In this document: in pieces, positions 15,450 through 26,480 of the stretch | How the letters are laid out: each line of letters opens with the position of its first letter | How positions within the stretch are numbered: the stretch's first letter is position 1 | Source: Armatimonadota bacterium | GTDB taxonomy: Bacteria; Sysuimicrobiota; Sysuimicrobiia; Sysuimicrobiales; Sysuimicrobiaceae | Length of the DNA: 64,000 bases | NCBI GenBank assembly: GCA_025059775.1 | Contig: JANXCW010000002.1 | Coordinates: forward strand, 62,001 to 126,000 | Direction of reading: 5' to 3' | Notes under the pieces: model-generated | Databases searched by the model: none | The model's input: the letters and a program-made list of their open reading frames with translations, nothing else | Told to the model about the DNA's origin: nothing | Program-made: the position numbers and the translations under genes

Positions 15450-17048
15450 TTAAGCCCAGGCGGGAAGGGGAGCTGGGCCGCGGGCCCGCTCATAGGCCCG
15501 GGCCACCCGGAGGAGGATCGCCTCCCCGAACGGACGGGCCACCACCTGCAGCCCCACCGGAAGACCGGCCACGAACCCACACGGGAGGGAGAGGGCGGGG
15601 AACCCCAAGGCGTTGAAGGGATTGGTGAACCGGGTGAGGAGGGCCCGGGTGTTGTACGGCTTCCCGGCGAGGAAGGTGGTCTCCTCCTCGAGGGGTGGGG
15701 CGGGTACGGGGACCGTGGGAGCGAGGAGCACGTCCACCCGGGAGAACACCTCCTGCAGGAAGCGGCGGATCAGGACGCGGCGTACGGATCTCGCCCGCAC
15801 GTAGCGCTCGCCCCCGAGGGCCAACCCCACCAGCAGCCGCTCCCGCACGTCCCGGCCGTAGGCATAGGGGGTTTCCCGCAGGGCCCGCACATGGACGGTG
15901 CTCGCCTCCACCATCAGTAGGGCCGTGGCCACCGCGGAGGCCACCTCCAACCCCTCCACCTGCACCTCCGCCACCTCCGCCCCCAGGTGCCGGAGGGTTT
16001 CCGTGGCGGCCACGACCGTGCGGGCCACGTCCGTATCCACCGCTTCCTCGAGGAAGCTCCGGAGTATTCCCACCCGGAGGCCACGAACCCTTGCGCTGCG
16101 CCCCCAGGGGATTCCGGTCAGCACCTCGAGGAGGAGGGCCACGTCCTCCACGGTGCGGGCCATAGGTCCCACGTGGTCCAGGGACCACGAGAGAGGGTAG
16201 ACGCCCTGCGTGGGCAGAAGCCCGTAGGTGGGCTTGAGCCCCACGACGCCACACAGAGCCGCGGGGATCCGGATGGACCCTCCGGTATCCGTTCCCAGGG
16301 ATCCGTAGATGCACCCGGTGGCGAGCGCCACCCCGCTTCCTCCGCTCGAACCACCGGGCGAGCGCGAGGGGTCCCAGGGGTTTCGGGCCGGGCCGAAGTG
16401 GGGGTTGTCGTTGGACACCCCATAAGCCCACTCGTGCAGGTGGGTCTTCCCCATGAACACGGCTCCCGCCTCCCGCAGCCGGGCCGTGACCGGGGCGTCC
16501 TCCGAGGCCACCACTTCCCTGCGGAGCGGAGAGCCGCAGGTCCAGGGGGCGCCCTCCTGCGCGATGAGGTCCTTGAGGGCGACGGGAATCCCGTGCAGGG
16601 GCCCCCACCAAGCCCCCCGCGCGGCCGCCTCCTCCGCCTCCTGGGCCCGCCGCAGGGCACCTTCCGCGTCCACGGAGAGAAAGGCCCGCAGCGCCGGGTT
16701 GATCTCCCCGATGCGCCGGAGGGCAGCCTCCACAACCTCCCGCGGGGAGATCCTCCGGTGGCGGACGGCCCGGGCCACCTGCACCAGGGAGAGCCGCAGG
16801 GGGTCCTGTGGAGGTTGCGGAGGAGCGTTCACCAGCCACTCCACGGTGCTCCCAAGCCCGGAGGGGGGCGCGCAGGCGAACTCCGCCCACTTCAGGTCCG
16901 CGGGCGGCTCGACGATCTCCATCCGCTCGAGGGGTTCCAGGCGACGCAGCACCGCATGCAGCTGCTCCGCGGCCCGGGCTTCGTCCTCGGGGGAGACCTC
17001 CAGGCCGTACCGGCGCAGGGTTTCGCGCACCAGGTGTGCCTCCGTCAT
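15450..17048 (-). CDS. Amidase-signature hydrolase with GatC-like N-terminal extension
   Basis: This is a Ser-cisSer-Lys amidase related to GatA and AtzF/AtzE-type hydrolases. The triad is visible as Lys159 (in VALKDLI), Ser234 (in GGSSGGS) and Ser258 (in DTGGSIR). The core begins around residue 85, preceded by a region (about 1-75) whose helical pattern and ERMEIVEPPADLK stretch resemble the small subunit GatC/AtzG. A fused small subunit is therefore possible. No gatB is present, so a transamidosome role is unlikely. The ATG overlaps the dtd stop as ATGA and the gene is last in the recJ-rel-fabI-dtd run. The substrate is unknown. Confidence 0.82.
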   Translation of the reverse strand: MTEAHLVRETLRRYGLEVSPEDEARAAEQLHAVLRRLEPLERMEIVEPPADLKWAEFACAPPSGLGSTVEWLVNAPPQPPQDPLRLSLVQVARAVRHRRISPREVVEAALRRIGEINPALRAFLSVDAEGALRRAQEAEEAAARGAWWGPLHGIPVALKDLIAQEGAPWTCGSPLRREVVASEDAPVTARLREAGAVFMGKTHLHEWAYGVSNDNPHFGPARNPWDPSRSPGGSSGGSGVALATGCIYGSLGTDTGGSIRIPAALCGVVGLKPTYGLLPTQGVYPLSWSLDHVGPMARTVEDVALLLEVLTGIPWGRSARVRGLRVGILRSFLEEAVDTDVARTVVAATETLRHLGAEVAEVQVEGLEVASAVATALLMVEASTVHVRALRETPYAYGRDVRERLLVGLALGGERYVRARSVRRVLIRRFLQEVFSRVDVLLAPTVPVPAPPLEEETTFLAGKPYNTRALLTRFTNPFNALGFPALSLPCGFVAGLPVGLQVVARPFGEAILLRVARAYERARGPAPLPAWA

Positions 17049-17497
17049 GATCGCAGCTCCGCGGTATCCACCAGGATGGTGACGGGGCCGTCGTTGAAGA
17101 TCTCCACCTGCATTACGGCGCCGAACATGCCCGTCCGCACGGGTACACCGAGTGCCCGCAGGGCCTCGTTGAAGGCATCGTACAGTCGTCGTGCGACATC
17201 CGGTGGGGCCGCCAGCACGAAGCTGGGGCGGTTTCCCTTGCGCACGTCTCCGTACAGGGTGAACTGGGAGATGGAGAGCACGGAGCCCCCCACTTCCAGC
17301 ACGGACCGGTTCAGCTTCCCGGCTTCGTCCGGGAAGATGCGCAGCTGCGCCACCTTTCGGGCCAGTCGCCGGGCGTCCTCCTCTGTGTCCTGGACGTGCA
17401 CGCCCACGAGCACCACCAGACCTCGGCCGATCTCCGCAATGCGTTCCTCCCGGACCTGGACCGCGCCCCTCAGAACCCTCTGTACCACCGCCCGCAT
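17045..17497 (-). CDS. dtd: D-aminoacyl-tRNA deacylase
   Basis: Dtd hydrolyses D-aminoacyl-tRNAs (and Gly-tRNA-Ala) to protect translation. The 150-residue product has family length with the SQFTLYGD active-site motif and the cross-subunit cis-Gly-Pro motif in NDGPVTI. The N terminus MRAVVQRV is the usual start. It lies seven bases after the fabI stop and overlaps the amidase start, so it is in the middle of a tightly packed operon. The order rel-dtd is common in Bacillota; here fabI is inserted between them. Confidence 0.95.
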   Translation of the reverse strand: MRAVVQRVLRGAVQVREERIAEIGRGLVVLVGVHVQDTEEDARRLARKVAQLRIFPDEAGKLNRSVLEVGGSVLSISQFTLYGDVRKGNRPSFVLAAPPDVARRLYDAFNEALRALGVPVRTGMFGAVMQVEIFNDGPVTILVDTAELRS

Positions 17498-18298: not shown

Positions 18299-20500
18299 TT
18301 AGCTGGGGACCCGCTCCACGCGGTAGACGTCCGGCACCTTGCTGATGCGCTGCATCACCGTGGTGAGCTGGCCCACGTTGCGGATGTCCAGGACGAGGTC
18401 GATGACACCCACCTTGTCCCGGCGCACCCGGGCGTTCACGCTCCGGACGTTCGTCCGGGTGTCCGCCACCGCGCTCAGAACGTCCTTGAGAAGGCCCACC
18501 CGATCCAGGGCCTCGATCTGGAGTTCCACGGGATACGTCCCGTCCTCGGACGGCTCCCACTCCACCTCCAGCAGCCGCTCGGGCTGCCGGCGGAGGTGGT
18601 GGAGGTTGGGGCAGTCGCGGCGGTGGATGGTCACTCCTCTCCCCCGGGTGATGTACCCCACCACCGCATCGCCCGGCAGGGGCATGCAGCACCGGGCCAG
18701 GGTGGTGAGCACGTTGTCCACACCCCGCACCCGCAGCCCCCGGGCTGCCGGTGCAGGCGGGGGGGCGGTCGGGGCAGGCGCGGGAAGCACCTCCGTAGGC
18801 GGCACCCCGGGTCCCTGGAGGGCCTGCACCACCTGCAACAGGGTGAGGTCACCGGTTCCCAGCGCCGCGTAGATGTCCTCCTCGCTCTGCAGCTGGAGTC
18901 GCTCCACGGCCTGGCGCAGCCGCTCTGTTTTCAGCAGCTGCCCGTGCAGTCCCAGCCGGCGCAGCTCCCGCTCCAGCAGCTCCCGGCCTCGAGCGATGTT
19001 CTCCTCCCGCTGCTGCTTGCGGAACCACTGCCGGATCTTGGTGCGGGCATTGCTGGTGACCACGAACCCCAGCCAGTCCCGGCTTGGCCCCGAAGAGGTT
19101 TTCGAGGTGAGGATCTCTACGATGTCCCCGCTCTGCAGCCGATAGCTCAGGGGAACCAGGCGCCCGTTCACCTTGGCGCCCACGCAGCGGTGGCCGATGT
19201 CCGTGTGGATGCGGTATGCGAAGTCCACGGGAGTGGCTCCCCTGGGCAGATCGATCACATCGCCCTTTGGGGTGAAGACGAAGACCTCGTTCTGGAAGAG
19301 GTCCAGCTTCACGGACCGCATGAACTCCCGGGCGTCCTGCATCTCCTGGTGCCACTCCAGGAGCTGCCGCAACCAGCTCAGCTTCTCCTCAAAGGCGCGG
19401 TCCCGGGGAACCGTGCGGCCCTCCTTGTACCGCCAGTGGGCCGCGATCCCATACTCCGCCTCCTGGTGCATCTGATGGGTACGGATCTGCACCTCCAGGG
19501 GCATGCCTCGGTAGAGCACGGTGGTGTGCAGAGACCGGTAGCCGCTGGGCTTTGGGTTTGCGATGTAGTCGTCGAACTCGCCGGGAATGGGCCGCCACAG
19601 GGAATGGATGATCCCGAGGGCCGCATAGCAGTCCTTCACCTCGTCCACGATCACCCGCACTCCCAGACGGTCGTAGATCCGGCTCAGGCCCTTCCCCTGG
19701 TACTCGGGCCGCTGCAGCTTCCGGTAGATGCTGTAGGCGTGCTTGGGACGCGCGGTGATGTTCGCGCGATCCACCCGGATCCCCGCCCGGTTCAGCTCCT
19801 GGTACAGCTCCTCCTGGACGCTCCGCAGGATCTCCTCCTGCTGCGTCTGAGCCTCCCGCAGGGCTTCCGTGATCTCCCGGTACGCCTCCGGCTCCAGGAT
19901 GGCGAAGGCGAGATCCTCCAGCTCGTTCTGTACCTGTCCGATCCCCAGACGCTTCGCCAGCGGCGCGTAGATCTCCAGGGTCTCCTGGGCTTTACGGCGC
20001 TGGTGGTCCGGGGGCATGGCGGCGATGGTGCGCAGGTTGTGGAGCCGGTCCGCCAACTTGATGAGGATGATGCGGATATCCTTCGCCATGGCGAGGAGCA
20101 TCTTCCGGAGGTTCTCCGCCTGACGCTCCTCCCGGCTCTTCCACTGGATCCGGCCCAGCTTGGTCACTCCGTCCACCAGGGCAGCGATTTCCTCCCCGAA
20201 CTCCTGCCGGATCTCCTCCAGGGTATGCCGGGTATCCTCCGGTACGTCGTGCAACAGCCCGGCGGCTACGGTCACGGGGTCCAGACGCAAACCGGCCAGA
20301 ATCTCCGCCACCGCGAGGGCGTGGTAGATGTAGGGCTCGCCGCTCCGCCGGAACTGTCCCTCGTGGGCCTCCACGGCGAATGCGTAGGCCCGCCGCAGCA
20401 GCGCGAGGTCCGCCCGTGGGTTCGCTTCCCGAACCCGCTCCACAACCCGCTGCATCTCCGGCGGCAGCGAGGGCTCCGTCTTCAGCTCCTCAAGCGCCAT
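18299..20500 (-). CDS. rel: Bifunctional (p)ppGpp synthetase/hydrolase Rel
   Basis: Rel makes and degrades the stringent-response alarmone (p)ppGpp. The 733 residues show the full long-RSH layout: an HD hydrolase domain with His60, HD at 84-85 and ED at 88-89; a synthetase domain around GVRVIVDEVKDCYAALG and NPKPSGYRSLH; a TGS domain (VFTPKGDVIDLPRGATPVDF); a Cys-containing zinc-finger region (ARCCMPLPGD); and a C-terminal ACT domain. Because the HD motif is intact, it should hydrolyse as well as synthesise. It follows recJ by six bases. Together with CodY, which senses GTP, it would link amino acid starvation to gene expression. Confidence 0.95.
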   Translation of the reverse strand: MALEELKTEPSLPPEMQRVVERVREANPRADLALLRRAYAFAVEAHEGQFRRSGEPYIYHALAVAEILAGLRLDPVTVAAGLLHDVPEDTRHTLEEIRQEFGEEIAALVDGVTKLGRIQWKSREERQAENLRKMLLAMAKDIRIILIKLADRLHNLRTIAAMPPDHQRRKAQETLEIYAPLAKRLGIGQVQNELEDLAFAILEPEAYREITEALREAQTQQEEILRSVQEELYQELNRAGIRVDRANITARPKHAYSIYRKLQRPEYQGKGLSRIYDRLGVRVIVDEVKDCYAALGIIHSLWRPIPGEFDDYIANPKPSGYRSLHTTVLYRGMPLEVQIRTHQMHQEAEYGIAAHWRYKEGRTVPRDRAFEEKLSWLRQLLEWHQEMQDAREFMRSVKLDLFQNEVFVFTPKGDVIDLPRGATPVDFAYRIHTDIGHRCVGAKVNGRLVPLSYRLQSGDIVEILTSKTSSGPSRDWLGFVVTSNARTKIRQWFRKQQREENIARGRELLERELRRLGLHGQLLKTERLRQAVERLQLQSEEDIYAALGTGDLTLLQVVQALQGPGVPPTEVLPAPAPTAPPPAPAARGLRVRGVDNVLTTLARCCMPLPGDAVVGYITRGRGVTIHRRDCPNLHHLRRQPERLLEVEWEPSEDGTYPVELQIEALDRVGLLKDVLSAVADTRTNVRSVNARVRRDKVGVIDLVLDIRNVGQLTTVMQRISKVPDVYRVERVPS

Positions 20501-20506
20501 TCCGCT

Positions 20507-23500
20507 TCACCCCGCGGGAGGAGCGGCGGGACCGGCCACTCCTTCCAGGATCTCCACGGCACCCGCCCGCCGCATCCACCGGATCCCCTGCTCCAGGGCC
20601 CGTCGGATCTCCTCCCCCTCTAGAAACCGTGCGGACACCGCCAGCTCTGCCCGCTGCCGTCCCGGACGGATGGACCACTCTCCTCCTTGCTCCTCCACCA
20701 CCCCAAGCTCCCGCAGGATGGCAAGCGCCGTGGGGAGCCCCTGCGCGGAGGACACGGGCCGCTTCCCCGCCCGGAGCCGCCGGTACACCTCCACCAGGGT
20801 TCTCCGCGAGGGGTATACCTCCTCCCACGCCTCCCGGATCCGCCTTCCATCTTCGGCATCGAAGGCTAGGTGCAGTGTAACACGCTCCCGGCCCGGTGCG
20901 GCACACGCCGCCTGGAGCAGGAAGAGGGCCCGAGGCTGCGGGGCACGCCACACCACGTGATCGACCCGCGTCCCCCCTTCCTCCGGTGGGGGACCCGAGC
21001 ACACCAGGACCTGCAGACGGCCCAGGGAGAGCAGGGCGTGCAGGCTCCTCCGGAGGGGCTGCGGGAGGAACGGGTGGTCGTAGGCGACGCGCACCTCCGG
21101 AAAATGGGCCTGCAGGATCTCCGCGGTGCGTACCGCCTCCTGGGGACCCGCCTCGAAGATCACCACCCGCTCTCCGGAGCGCACGAGGTCCACCAAGTGC
21201 TCCAGCCCCCCTCGACCCCGGCAGTCATCGAGGATCACCTCCCAGCGCATCCCGCCCCAGTACTCCAGGACCCATCCGGCAGGCGGATCTGTCCGGGCGG
21301 ACCACAGGTTCCATCGCACCGGACCGGGGTGTCGGAGCACCATCTCCGGCAGGACCACGGATTCTCCCACCAGGAGGTCCTGCGGCTTCAACAGACCCGG
21401 GTGGCGGCGGAGGTAGGAGAAGGTGGTGAAGAGCACGGGCGCGTGGGCCGCGGCGGGGTGCGGACGTATCCCGTGCCAGCATTCCGCGGGCACCCCGCAG
21501 GCCCGAAGCTTCGGCTCCCACTGCGCCCACCGGATATCCGCGAGGTCATGGGTGGGCCACGCACACACTACCCTCCTCCCCCCACGCGCCTCCTCCGCCA
21601 CCCCCACCAACAGCGCCCTCCACAGGCCTCGCCCCGGACCTCCCACCAGCACTCCCCTTCCTTCCCGGGTCGCGTCCAGCCATCCCCGGAGCGGGTCCGG
21701 GAGTTGCTCCCCCTCCAGGAGCCGGAGCTCCAGCATCCCCTCCCCTCGAAGGCCGGATTCCCAGATCTCCCGCTCCACCCGAATCCGCACGCCATTCAAC
21801 CCCGTCTCCAGCACGACGGCCCGATAGGATTCCCCTCGATCGAGGCCCGGGGCGATCCGGCCCGCCACCTCCGAGGGAAGGCGACCGAGGAAGCGTCCAT
21901 CCTCCGTTTCCACCCGGACGGCGTACGGGTCCGTGGGATGGTCCGGCTCTCGGACGAAGCGGAGGATGTGCCCGGCAACCAGGTTAGGCGTCCCCGCCTC
22001 ATCGCGGAGCTCCAGCTGGAACGAGCAGGCCCGCTCCACCCCTGCCCAGTCGGGTTCCCAGTACTCGCTGGCCCGCTCGAACAGGCGCGTCAGAATCCGC
22101 TCTGTATCCGGGGGAACCGAGGAGGTCCGCGCGGGCCGCAGGTCCTGAACCACCAGCTGGACCGCACTCCGATCTGGCCCGGAAGACGGCTCCACGGAGG
22201 CCGCCACGTCCACCTGCGGGGCCGAAAGGGCAAGACGTTCCGCCCGGTCCCCGAGCCCGAAGGCGATGCCCACCACGCGGCGGGTGCCGTCGGAAAGCCA
22301 AAGGCGCAGGTGGCTGGCATTGGCCCCCACAGGGCGGCTTTCCAGTACCCGGAGGCCGCGCAGGGCGAACACCGGACGGGGGTTCCCCACCCCGTGGGGT
22401 TCTAGGATTCGGAGGGCCTCCAGGAAGCGGTCGTCGAGCTCCGCAAGCGTGAGCTCCGCGTCCAGGTCCACGGTGGGGAGGAGGTCCTGAGGCTGAACCC
22501 AAGCCCGCACCGCCTCCTCGAACCGATCCCGGAAGGCCTCCAGGCGGTCGGTCAGAAGGCTTACACCCGCGGCCTGGGCGTGCCCTCCGAACGCCTCCAG
22601 CAAGGGTGCACAGGCCCGCAGGGCCTCCACGAGGTTCACCTCCGGGATGCTGCGGCCGCTTCCCCGGGCGATCCTCTCCCCCACGCTCAGCAGGATGGTA
22701 GGTCGGTAGAAGGTCTCCCGGACCTTGCCCGCGGCGATCCCCAGCACCCCCGGGTGCCAGGGTCCCCACAGGACCAGTGTGGCACGGTTCGGGGGATCCA
22801 AGGCCTGGGCGGCTTTCACCGCATCCTCCACCACCTCGTCCTGCACCCGCTGGCGCCTCTGGTTGAGGGCCTCCAGCTCCGCGCTCAGCCGTGCTGCCTC
22901 TTCCGGATCCTCCGTGAGGAGGAGATCCAGGGAGAGCTGGGCGGATTCCAGCCGGCCGCTCGCGTTGAGCCGGGGCGCCAGGCGCCACACCACGTCGTCC
23001 GCGGTCAGGCGGTCCGCTAAGCCCGCGGCCCGCAGGAGGGCCTGCAATCCCGGAAGGGAGGTGGTGGACATCCGGGCGAGGCCCGCCTTGGCGAGCATCC
23101 GGTTGGGGCCCACCAGGGGAACCATATCCGCCAGGGTACCGATGGCCGCGAGCTCCACCAGGGCTTCTCCCCCTCCCGTTCCCCCACGGGATTCCAGGAG
23201 TCGCACGAGCAGCCACGCGAGCCCGGCGGCGCAGTACTCCCGAAAGGATCCGGTGCCCAGCTTGGGATCCACCAGGGCATCCGCGGCGGGGAGGATGGGG
23301 GGAGGCTCGTGGTGATCCAACACCACTACCCGCATCCCCCGGCGGCGGGCGAGGGCGACTTCCTCCACCGCGGTGATCCCGCAATCCACCGCTACGAGCA
23401 GGCGGGCACCGCCTGCGACGATGCGATCCACGGCCTGGACGGAGAGGCCGTACCCCTCCTGGAGGCGGTGGGGGATATACGGGGCCACCCGTGCGCCCAT

Positions 23501-23842
23501 GGCCCGCAGGCCACGCACGAGGACGGCACAGGCACACACCCCATCCGCGTCATAGTCCCCGTAAACCACAATGGGGTCCTTGCGCACCGTCGCCTCCTCC
23601 ACCAGGGAGGCCGCCTCCGCCATACCGGGGATGTGTTCTGGATCGGGAAGGTCCCGGAGATCCGCCCGCAGGAAAGCCCGGATCTCCTCCTCCGTGCGGC
23701 AGCCCCGTCGCAGGAGGACCTGCACGAGAACGGGGGGCAAATCGAGCCGATGGGCGAGGACCTGGCAGAGGGAATCCGGGTCCGGGAGGCGCCACCGGGA
23801 GGGAGGCGGGGAGCCCTCAGAGCTTGCGCGTAGGCTCCGCAT
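20507..23842 (-). CDS. recJ: RecJ exonuclease fused to HIRAN-like and helicase-like regions
   Basis: RecJ degrades single-stranded DNA 5' to 3' in recombination and mismatch repair. The nuclease core is complete: DYDAD (96-100), VDCGI (152-156), DHH (176-178), then DHHA1 and OB parts up to about residue 570. At 1,111 residues the protein is far longer than the usual 550-800. Residues 600-695 contain the pattern REPDHPTDPYAVRVETEDG then LGRLPSEVA, which matches HIRAN domains. Residues 730-1000 look like a superfamily 2 helicase, but Walker A is degraded (GGPGRGLW, no Lys). The remaining C terminus is of unknown type. The first 26 bases overlap the LapA-like gene; rel follows immediately. Confidence 0.93.
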   Translation of the reverse strand: MRSLRASSEGSPPPSRWRLPDPDSLCQVLAHRLDLPPVLVQVLLRRGCRTEEEIRAFLRADLRDLPDPEHIPGMAEAASLVEEATVRKDPIVVYGDYDADGVCACAVLVRGLRAMGARVAPYIPHRLQEGYGLSVQAVDRIVAGGARLLVAVDCGITAVEEVALARRRGMRVVVLDHHEPPPILPAADALVDPKLGTGSFREYCAAGLAWLLVRLLESRGGTGGGEALVELAAIGTLADMVPLVGPNRMLAKAGLARMSTTSLPGLQALLRAAGLADRLTADDVVWRLAPRLNASGRLESAQLSLDLLLTEDPEEAARLSAELEALNQRRQRVQDEVVEDAVKAAQALDPPNRATLVLWGPWHPGVLGIAAGKVRETFYRPTILLSVGERIARGSGRSIPEVNLVEALRACAPLLEAFGGHAQAAGVSLLTDRLEAFRDRFEEAVRAWVQPQDLLPTVDLDAELTLAELDDRFLEALRILEPHGVGNPRPVFALRGLRVLESRPVGANASHLRLWLSDGTRRVVGIAFGLGDRAERLALSAPQVDVAASVEPSSGPDRSAVQLVVQDLRPARTSSVPPDTERILTRLFERASEYWEPDWAGVERACSFQLELRDEAGTPNLVAGHILRFVREPDHPTDPYAVRVETEDGRFLGRLPSEVAGRIAPGLDRGESYRAVVLETGLNGVRIRVEREIWESGLRGEGMLELRLLEGEQLPDPLRGWLDATREGRGVLVGGPGRGLWRALLVGVAEEARGGRRVVCAWPTHDLADIRWAQWEPKLRACGVPAECWHGIRPHPAAAHAPVLFTTFSYLRRHPGLLKPQDLLVGESVVLPEMVLRHPGPVRWNLWSARTDPPAGWVLEYWGGMRWEVILDDCRGRGGLEHLVDLVRSGERVVIFEAGPQEAVRTAEILQAHFPEVRVAYDHPFLPQPLRRSLHALLSLGRLQVLVCSGPPPEEGGTRVDHVVWRAPQPRALFLLQAACAAPGRERVTLHLAFDAEDGRRIREAWEEVYPSRRTLVEVYRRLRAGKRPVSSAQGLPTALAILRELGVVEEQGGEWSIRPGRQRAELAVSARFLEGEEIRRALEQGIRWMRRAGAVEILEGVAGPAAPPAG

Positions 23843-24162: not shown

Positions 24163-25137
24163 TCAAACGCGAGAGGTGCGGCGGCCACGGCGGGATCCCG
24201 CCTCCACCGTCTCTGCCCGGGCGCTGGACGGAGCCCCGGGTGCGACCAAGGCCATGCGCTCCCCCCGCACCGCGAGGTCCACGAGAAGGGGGCTTGCAAC
24301 CCCGATGGAGGAGTAGGCGCCCGTGAGGACCGCCACGCACAGGCCGAAGGCGAAGTCTCGGATGGTGGGCCCTCCGAACACGTACACGGCTCCGATGGCA
24401 AGCAGGGTGGTGGCGCTGGTCCCCAGGGACCGCACCAGGGACTCCAGGATGCTGCGGTTCACGAGTTCCGGGAAGGGCTCCCGGGTGCGCAGGTTGAGGT
24501 TCTCCCGGATGCGGTCGAAGACCACGATGGTATCGTTGATGCTGTAGCCCACCACCGTGAGGAGGACCGCCACAAAAGCGCTGTCCACCGTGGCCCGGGT
24601 GAGGGCAAACGCCCCCAGGACCACCAGTACGTCATGCACCAGGGCCACGTCCGCGGCGAGGGCGTAGTGCCAGGAGCGGAACCGGATCGTCACGTAGACC
24701 ACCTGGAGGATCAGGCCGATCACCACCCCGAGGATGGCGATGTTGCGCAGCTCCCGGCCGATCTTGGGCCCCACGTCGTCCACGCTGAGCACCATGAACG
24801 GGCCCACTCCACGACGTAGGGCCCCCAGCACCTGGTTGCGCTCCGCGGCACTCAGGTATCTGGTTCGAATCGAGACATCGCCGGTCCCCGGCGTCTGCTG
24901 GATCATCGCCTCCCCAAGCCGGAGCGGGGTTAGGACGGAGCGCACCCTGCCGGTGGTCACGGTGCGATCCTCGAACCGCAGGAGGAGCAGGGTTCCTCCC
25001 GTGAAGTCCACACCCCAGTTGAGGGGCGGACGTCCCACAGCCATGTTGCCGGCCAGGGCCGCTCCCGCGAGGAGGACGACGAGCAGGGAGGCCAGGTACA
25101 GGTAGCGGCGGTGTCCGATGAGATCCCAGCGTTTCAT
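24163..25137 (-). CDS. secF: Protein translocase subunit SecF
   Basis: SecF pairs with SecD to pull preproteins across the membrane using the proton gradient. The ATG at 25137 overlaps the secD stop as ATGA and yields 324 residues beginning [15 protein letters not shown]; the longer upstream frame lies inside secD and is not real. The GVDFTGGT signature follows the first membrane helix, and six membrane segments are visible, with the conserved [19 protein letters not shown] motif. The C-terminal 40 residues are polar and lie in the cytoplasm. Confidence 0.95.
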
Positions 25138-26480
25138 GCCGCCGCCTCCACGCGGGGCAACCGCGCCATGCGCACAAACCACCCTGCAAGCCCCGTGTCC
25201 ACGCACAGCTCCACCAGCCAGCGGGTCACGAAGACCGCGGTGAACACACTCACCAGAACCCCGATCACCAGGGTGACCGCGAAGCCCCGGATGGGTCCGC
25301 TTCCCAGCCACAGCAGCACGGCGGCGCCGATCAAGGTGGTGGCGTTGCTGTCGACGATGGTTGCGAGGGCGCGCCGCCAGCCCGTGGCGATGGCCGTCCG
25401 CAACGGCTTACCCATCCGGAGCTCCTCTTTGACCTTCTCGAAGATGATCACGTTGCCGTCCACCGCCATCCCCAGGCTCAGGATGAGGCCGGCGATGCCG
25501 GGCAGGGTCAGGGTGGCGCTCAGTGCGGTGAATACGCCGAGGACCGAGAGGGCGTAGATCCCCAGAGCCACGGAGGCCAGCAGCCCTCCAAGGCCGTAGT
25601 AGGAGACCAGGAGGAGGACCACCATGGCCGCGGCGATCCATCCCGCCCGCAGGCTGCGCTCAATGGAGTCCCGCCCCAGGGTAGGTCCCACCGTACGCTC
25701 CTCCACAGGCTGGACGGGGACGGGGAGGGCTCCCCCCCGCAGCAGGATGGCGAGGTCCCGGGCCTGGTCCGAGGTGAAGTTCCCCTCGATCACCCCCTCC
25801 CCGGGGATCCGGGCCCGGATGACGGGCGAACTGATCACCCGGTTGTCGAGGACGATGGTGAGGTACTCGCCGATGCTGCGGCCCGTATGCTCCTCAAACT
25901 TCTTTGCACCCTCCCCTCCGAACCGGAAGCGCACCACCCAGTTCAATCCCTGCGGATCCAGCTCCGCCCGCGCGTCCCGCAGGTCCGCACCCGTCACCAC
26001 CACCTTCTTGGGGAGGGAGACCACGCGGCCATCGGGAAGCCGCACCCGGCGGTTGCCCGGAAGCCACTCCGCGCCCTCCGGAAGGCTCTGGTGGTCCGTG
26101 TCCACGAACTCCAGCAGGGCCGTGCGGCCGATGAGCTCCTTGGCCCGCTGTGGGTCCTGAAGCCCTGGGAACTCCACGATGATGCGGTCCGCGCCCTGGC
26201 GCTGCAGGAGCGGCTCCGCGATCCCCAGGGCGTCGATGCGGCGCTCGATGACCCGCATGGCGGCGTCCACCTTGTCCGGGGTAACCTGCACACCCGGACG
26301 TGGCTGGGCCTCCAGCACGATGCGGGTGCCGCCCTGCAGGTCCAAGCCCAACCGGAGGTGGGGCCGCGGGGGATGGAGCACGGGTCTCCACCCATCCCAC
26401 GCCAGGGGTTGGAAGGTCACCTGAAATGCCCCGAGGACGAGGGCCAGGAGGATCAACACGCGCAGGGGATATCCTCGCAA
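25134..26480 (-). CDS. secD: Protein translocase subunit SecD
   Basis: SecD is the large partner of SecF in the accessory translocase. The 448-residue product begins at a TTG (26480..26478) with AAGGAG eight bases upstream. It has an N-terminal membrane helix, the [14 protein letters not shown] motif, a periplasmic P1 region and five further membrane segments including [16 protein letters not shown]. Homology to the family starts right after the TTG, so no earlier start is needed. Its promoter overlaps the stop codon of the preceding thiolase gene. Confidence 0.95.

Follow-up and report, generated by a model that had tools for sequence, protein, structure and literature searches.

A RecJ exonuclease fused to a HIRAN domain and a motor-dead RecQ-type helicase module in Sysuimicrobiota, with intact and decayed relatives in other bacteria

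The recJ gene of the window (the whole 64,000-nucleotide stretch analysed, from a 2.35 Mb genome of the phylum named Sysuimicrobiota/CSP1-3 (PMC11604079)) encodes a RecJ core followed by a HIRAN domain and a helicase module of RecQ-type ancestry, a layout that is present throughout the phylum, always with the motor destroyed. The module lacks its ATPase motifs phylum-wide and is kept under selection, and versions of it with an intact motor are fused to RecJ in some Bacillota. The best explanation, which is regarded as rather probable, is that the protein joins a RecJ exonuclease, acting 5'->3' on single strands, to a RecQ-type module without a working motor that would serve passively in DNA holding or docking. 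The protein represents a new form of RecJ, and its intact and split relatives are of wider interest still.

Table 1. Coordinates of the recJ fusion gene, the parts of its product and the neighbouring genes in the window.
Feature	Position	Strand	Evidence and remarks
recJ fusion gene	20507..23842	minus	ORF, ATG start, 1111 aa plus stop
RecJ core, residues 1-570	22133..23842	minus	DHH 91-235, DHHA1 362-446, RecJ_OB 460-567
HIRAN domain, residues 618-694	21761..21991	minus	PF08797, E 4.6e-11; N-terminal pocket segment absent in genus
RecQ-type RecA-like lobe 1, about residues 712-862	21257..21709	minus	profile against PDB, model, motif table; motor motifs lost
Degenerate Walker A GGPGRGLW, residues 734-741	21620..21643	minus	GTGRGKS in intact relatives
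RecQ-type RecA-like lobe 2, about residues 866-1010	20813..21247	minus	motifs V and VI lost
Winged-helix-like tail, about residues 1011-1092	20567..20812	minus	motif of '(R/K)xDLxxSxRYxEG' type; collinear with the end of PF10141
Small ORF, 102 aa	23817..24125	minus	between secF and recJ; no Pfam match; overlaps recJ start by 26 bases
secF	24163..25311	minus	PF02355, E 7e-56; ORF, true start probably more internal
secD	25134..26480	minus	
relA/spoT	18299..20500	minus	directly downstream of recJ; PF04607, PF13328, TGS, ACT; neighbour conserved
dtd, D-Tyr-tRNA deacylase	17045..17497	minus	PF02580, E 1e-56

The gene order secD-secF-recJ-relA is that of the window's phylum, and the plus strand of positions 20507 to 23842 is interrupted by stops. 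The small ORF ahead of recJ lies in what is presumably the same place as the YrvD/LapA-like proteins of B. subtilis.

A full DHH/DHHA1/OB core reaching to about residue 570 had been predicted and was found: all three domains are matched by Pfam in the window protein, TIGR00644 matches residues 37-568 (E 1e-139; 465.9 bits against a cut-off of 396.9 in the NCBIfam search), and the full-length model matches the RecJ structures of D. radiodurans (5f55) and S. aureus (8y30) over about 570 residues. Because the catalytic residues (D98, D100, D153, D176-H177-H178, D239 and G419-G420-H421), among them the DxD, DHH and GGH motifs, are invariant in the 18 sequences of the phylum alignment, the nuclease is probably active. 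Compared with RecJ proper, the window protein has 540 additional residues, which comprise the HIRAN domain, two RecQ-type RecA lobes and the winged-helix-like tail. In a tree of the RecJ core (built by a quick method, with most rows of odd composition), Sysuimicrobiota form a single clade (support 100), and since this clade is not nested in Bacillota, no recent transfer is seen.

Neither Pfam nor NCBIfam gave a helicase match to the window protein alone, the tail yielding only HIRAN by Pfam and no NCBIfam match at all (the cut-off of TIGR00614 was not reached), and the tail alone drew only weak HLTF matches from PDB sequences. Since the rest of the protein has no family match by itself, the proposed helicase was tested through its relatives. 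A search of genome contigs with the divergent window tail as query found no match; an alignment of phylum members as query succeeded. The profile of the 25-member tail family matched RecQ across both RecA lobes in PDB (4tmu, E 4e-22; 1oyw, E 3e-19; RecQ4, E 9e-19), and single relatives were matched by Helicase_C (20 of 25), DEAD (13 of 25) and RecQ models (18 of 25). Against the TIGR00614 cut-off of 219.8 bits, intact relatives reach 160-210, those of Bacillota falling just short. AlphaFold, given the window tail with 21 relatives, produced a two-lobe helicase fold (pLDDT 84, pTM 0.86), for which the top Foldseek matches were WRN (E 2e-11), Brr2, RecQ (E 1.5e-10) and Hel308, all between 2e-11 and 2e-10. 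The tail is thus a pair of RecA-like lobes of RecQ-type ancestry, resembling the RecQ family (TIGR00614; 4tmu, 1oyw, WRN) in profile and fold across both lobes; it differs from that family in the phylum's loss of the catalytic motifs, in the HIRAN domain that precedes the motor and in its fusion to RecJ. The superfamily 2 helicase of the original prediction was correct and can be specified further as RecQ-type; its length, given as about 270 residues, was understated, the RecA lobes occupying about 300 residues and a winged-helix-like tail about 100 more.

The destroyed Walker A and missing DExx box that had been read from the sequence hold for the window and for its phylum alike. When the Walker A lysine, the DExH motif and the arginine fingers were sought in the window tail, the lysine position was found to be Leu740, and neither DE nor an arginine finger was present; across the phylum, the Walker lysine is lost in 30 of 30 sequences, the DE glutamate in 29 of 30 and the first arginine finger in 30 of 30. 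That the tail binds ATP in a non-standard way, as a working or regulatory motor, is scarcely credible: a GPGRG-like loop is conserved in most members, but lysine, DE glutamate, motif III and arginine fingers have been lost together phylum-wide.

A match to the same gene was found in 41 of 43 genomes of the phylum (28 of the 28 good ones), in seven families and in an assembly of only four contigs, and complete members are open frames of about 1100-1340 residues. The named phylum genomes are metagenome assemblies, as would suit an artefact of assembly or annotation; such an origin can be given practically no credence, in view of the match in so many genomes, the single open frame and the conserved neighbours. 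The survey of the phylum rules out this reading and also that of a recent fusion. A combination of RecJ, HIRAN and a motor-dead superfamily 2 helicase was rightly predicted; it is no one-off, for it is phylum-wide and has counterparts with an intact motor in about 8% of the Bacillota sampled. Within the phylum, dN/dS is 0.17-0.36 in the helicase region of the tail and 0.15-0.27 in the RecJ core, and this similarity implies that the tail is kept under selection and is not junk. A functionless, decaying leftover is therefore very unlikely, even with the graded decay seen in Bacillota and the dN/dS of 0.68 for HIRAN in the window's genus, given also that full length is retained across seven families and that the fold is predicted with confidence. 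RecQ above its family cut-off is absent from 42 of 43 genomes of the phylum, a count slightly limited by fragmented assemblies. The sole exception (L217; G029:C17:25725-26768) lies within an open frame of 1800 residues and is probably a separately acquired, larger RecQ-containing protein.

The HIRAN pattern predicted at residues 600-695 is borne out by PF08797, whose score of 42.8 bits exceeds the cut-off of 24.7. As a profile it resembles the HIRAN domains of HLTF and Rad5 (4xzf, 2mzn), from which it differs in being followed by a RecQ-type motor rather than SWI/SNF. The dinucleotide pocket of HLTF is bordered by two aromatic residues, Tyr72 and Tyr93 (PMC4666394), neither of which is present in the window's HIRAN domain: in its genus the segment matching Tyr72 is deleted, and in the window the equivalents of Tyr93 and Asn91 are Thr and His (comparison of pocket columns). 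The Tyr72 place is aromatic (F or Y) in 28 of 30 phylum members, an equivalence assigned by motif rather than by aligned match because the HLTF alignment begins just past Tyr72, and most relatives keep the Asn and Asp of NPxD (Asn91 and Asp94 of HLTF). For HIRAN, dN/dS is 0.68 in the window's genus, 0.08-0.12 in five other pairs from the phylum and 0.44 in one pair from Bacillota. The HIRAN pocket of this genus is decaying, which suggests that part of the module is dispensable there, and on account of the deletion, the Thr/His substitutions and the raised dN/dS, the end-binding that the original prediction ascribed to HIRAN is doubtful in this genus and is the least safe part of that prediction.

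RecQ and RecJ are textbook partners, made as separate proteins. They work as a couple (PMC3000357). In the intact form of the fusion, one polypeptide would couple RecQ-like unwinding to RecJ digestion: HIRAN would hold a DNA end or junction, the motor would unwind and the RecJ part would degrade the 5' strand. In the window protein, the module would act without the usual ATP hydrolysis as a passive clamp, as a docking surface, or as both, for a strand, a junction or a partner, with unwinding presumably supplied by another helicase of the organism. A precedent is AddB, which retains an inactivated helicase domain (PMC4824097). AddB and RecC (of AddAB and RecBCD) resemble the window protein as parts of nuclease systems with a motor-dead helicase fold, which there reads the strand, and differ from it in belonging to superfamily 1 and in working in complexes with a live motor, whereas the module here is of superfamily 2 and shares its own protein with no live motor. 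A rival reading, judged unlikely, is that the tail serves off DNA as a domain for protein-protein docking only, with partners such as SSB, HerA-like proteins or the replisome. It draws on Deinococcus RecJ, whose extra C-terminal domain is required for interaction with HerA and for function (PMC4663267), on B. subtilis RecJ as a major partner of SSB (PMC3000357), and on the loss of the HIRAN pocket in the window's genus; yet selection has preserved an entire two-lobe and winged-helix fold, more than a docking surface needs, and other phylum members retain the pocket residues. No text linking RecJ with HIRAN or describing the fusion was found in a literature search that covered few subscription journals (domain databases may list the architecture), and the search turned up no biochemical work on any of these proteins.

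Related genomes had been proposed as a place to look for the same fusion, and beyond the phylum it was found with an intact motor in Bacillota. When 200 Bacillota genomes were surveyed for RecJ, numerous ORFs had a length of about 1200 residues; in one RecJ of 1212 residues Pfam found HIRAN, DEAD and Helicase_C together, and the tails of these long proteins matched the Sysuimicrobiota profile with E down to 1e-146. A wider draw found the module in 32 of 399 genomes. The intact motifs are GTGRGKS, DE(S/A)HH, TATA, YVNSR, TSAFGEG and QxxGRxGRD, and the motif table records K, D, E, H, H and both R as intact in all 17 Bacillota fusions and all 22 standalone proteins compared. Several of the Bacillota genomes with an intact fusion have no other RecQ. 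Decay is graded in other Bacillota, from L185, which is without HIRAN and Walker A, to later ones without most of lobe 1. The genome of L185 (G208), in which the recJ-fused helicase is decayed, also encodes a standalone HIRAN-helicase of 648 residues with all motifs (L262:5343-7289, plus strand), as if the function had shifted to a second gene; beside it lies a 311-residue ORF that by eye resembles a recombination protein of phage type, so the standalone copy may be mobile.

The tail of ordinary Bacillus-type RecJ is PF10141 (E 4e-68 by Pfam), the type to which B. subtilis RecJ presumably belongs. Pfam found no PF10141 match in the window protein or in 25 relatives, and the homology emerges only from profile-profile comparison. 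PF10141-type tails (ssDNA-exonuc_C) align in the same order with the intact fusion, along its lobe 2 and winged helix as far as the xDLxxS motif at the close (HHalign 97.4%, score 90.8; maximum of 28 among 60 column-shuffled controls), and differ from the window's module in having only about 200 residues and neither lobe 1 nor HIRAN. When PF10141 was split, its winged-helix half gave 96% and its RecA half 30% (score 34 against a null maximum of 22). The tails of Clostridium-like RecJ proteins are collinear with the fused module at 99.9%, and both of their halves are strong (98.6 and 99.3%). This collinearity makes it probable that PF10141 is what is left of a RecJ-fused helicase module, its RecA half being linked through intermediate sequences. 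Bacillota RecJ tails of about 360 residues (L134/L206 and L138) align with the intact fused module at 99.2% and are an unrecorded stage of decay; no significant Pfam match was found for the L134 tail. The possibility that the window's layout is merely the common C-terminal domain of Bacillota RecJ is half right, in that a decayed piece of it (PF10141) is common and the full layout is not.

Beyond the window's phylum, 386 genomes were surveyed, for the most part one or two from each family. Apart from the Sysuimicrobiota and Bacillota fusions, the whole HIRAN-helicase was found in one family only, f133 (possibly Eremiobacterota, at a guess), where it stands alone and has about 650-800 residues (L219, L220, L239-L257). 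Among 98 genomes of the phylum of f133, the HIRAN-helicase is encoded by 52 of 53 in f133 and by 0 of 45 others; RecJ is encoded by 0 of 53 and 28 of 45, respectively. In 20 of 21 f133 loci, secF is directly upstream on the same strand, which is the usual place of recJ, and where other families of the phylum encode RecJ, the protein ends in a relic tail (HHalign 99.1%). The simplest account of f133 is that the nuclease half was lost in situ. A different history, considered doubtful and compatible with the preferred function of the window protein, is that the HIRAN-RecQ helicase began as a standalone protein, became joined to RecJ in a common ancestor of Bacillota and Sysuimicrobiota, and persists in f133 in its original form. 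It would explain why the f133 proteins branch outside every fused form in a tail tree rooted on RecQ (in which L188 is a long branch and from which rows L001 and L002 dropped out, so that the placement of the window's own protein rests on the core tree); it does not sit well with the position of the f133 genes after secF in genomes without RecJ, or with the relic tails on RecJ in sister families.

The intact motor in relatives from other bacteria suggests that the RecQ-RecJ pair was once a single protein that decayed differently by lineage. The ancestral RecJ-HIRAN-helicase protein probably had a working motor, and the losses would have been those of the motor in Sysuimicrobiota, of most of the helicase in ordinary Bacillota RecJ, leaving PF10141, and of the nuclease in f133. 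The history narrowly favoured is that of an ancient one-polypeptide RecJ-HIRAN-RecQ machine for end resection, intact in some Bacillota, fossilized as PF10141, reduced to the helicase alone in f133 and motor-dead in the RecQ-less Sysuimicrobiota. If this is true, the descent of intact, motor-dead and nuclease-less forms from one fusion would mean that the RecQ-RecJ pair was once one enzyme, and would explain the C-terminal domain of Bacillota RecJ, which is uncharacterised. The fusion relatives would be ready constructs for the study of helicase-exonuclease coupling in end resection, and in a phylum without RecQ, whose RecJ carries a dead module of the RecQ type, the role of a dead helicase can be tested directly.
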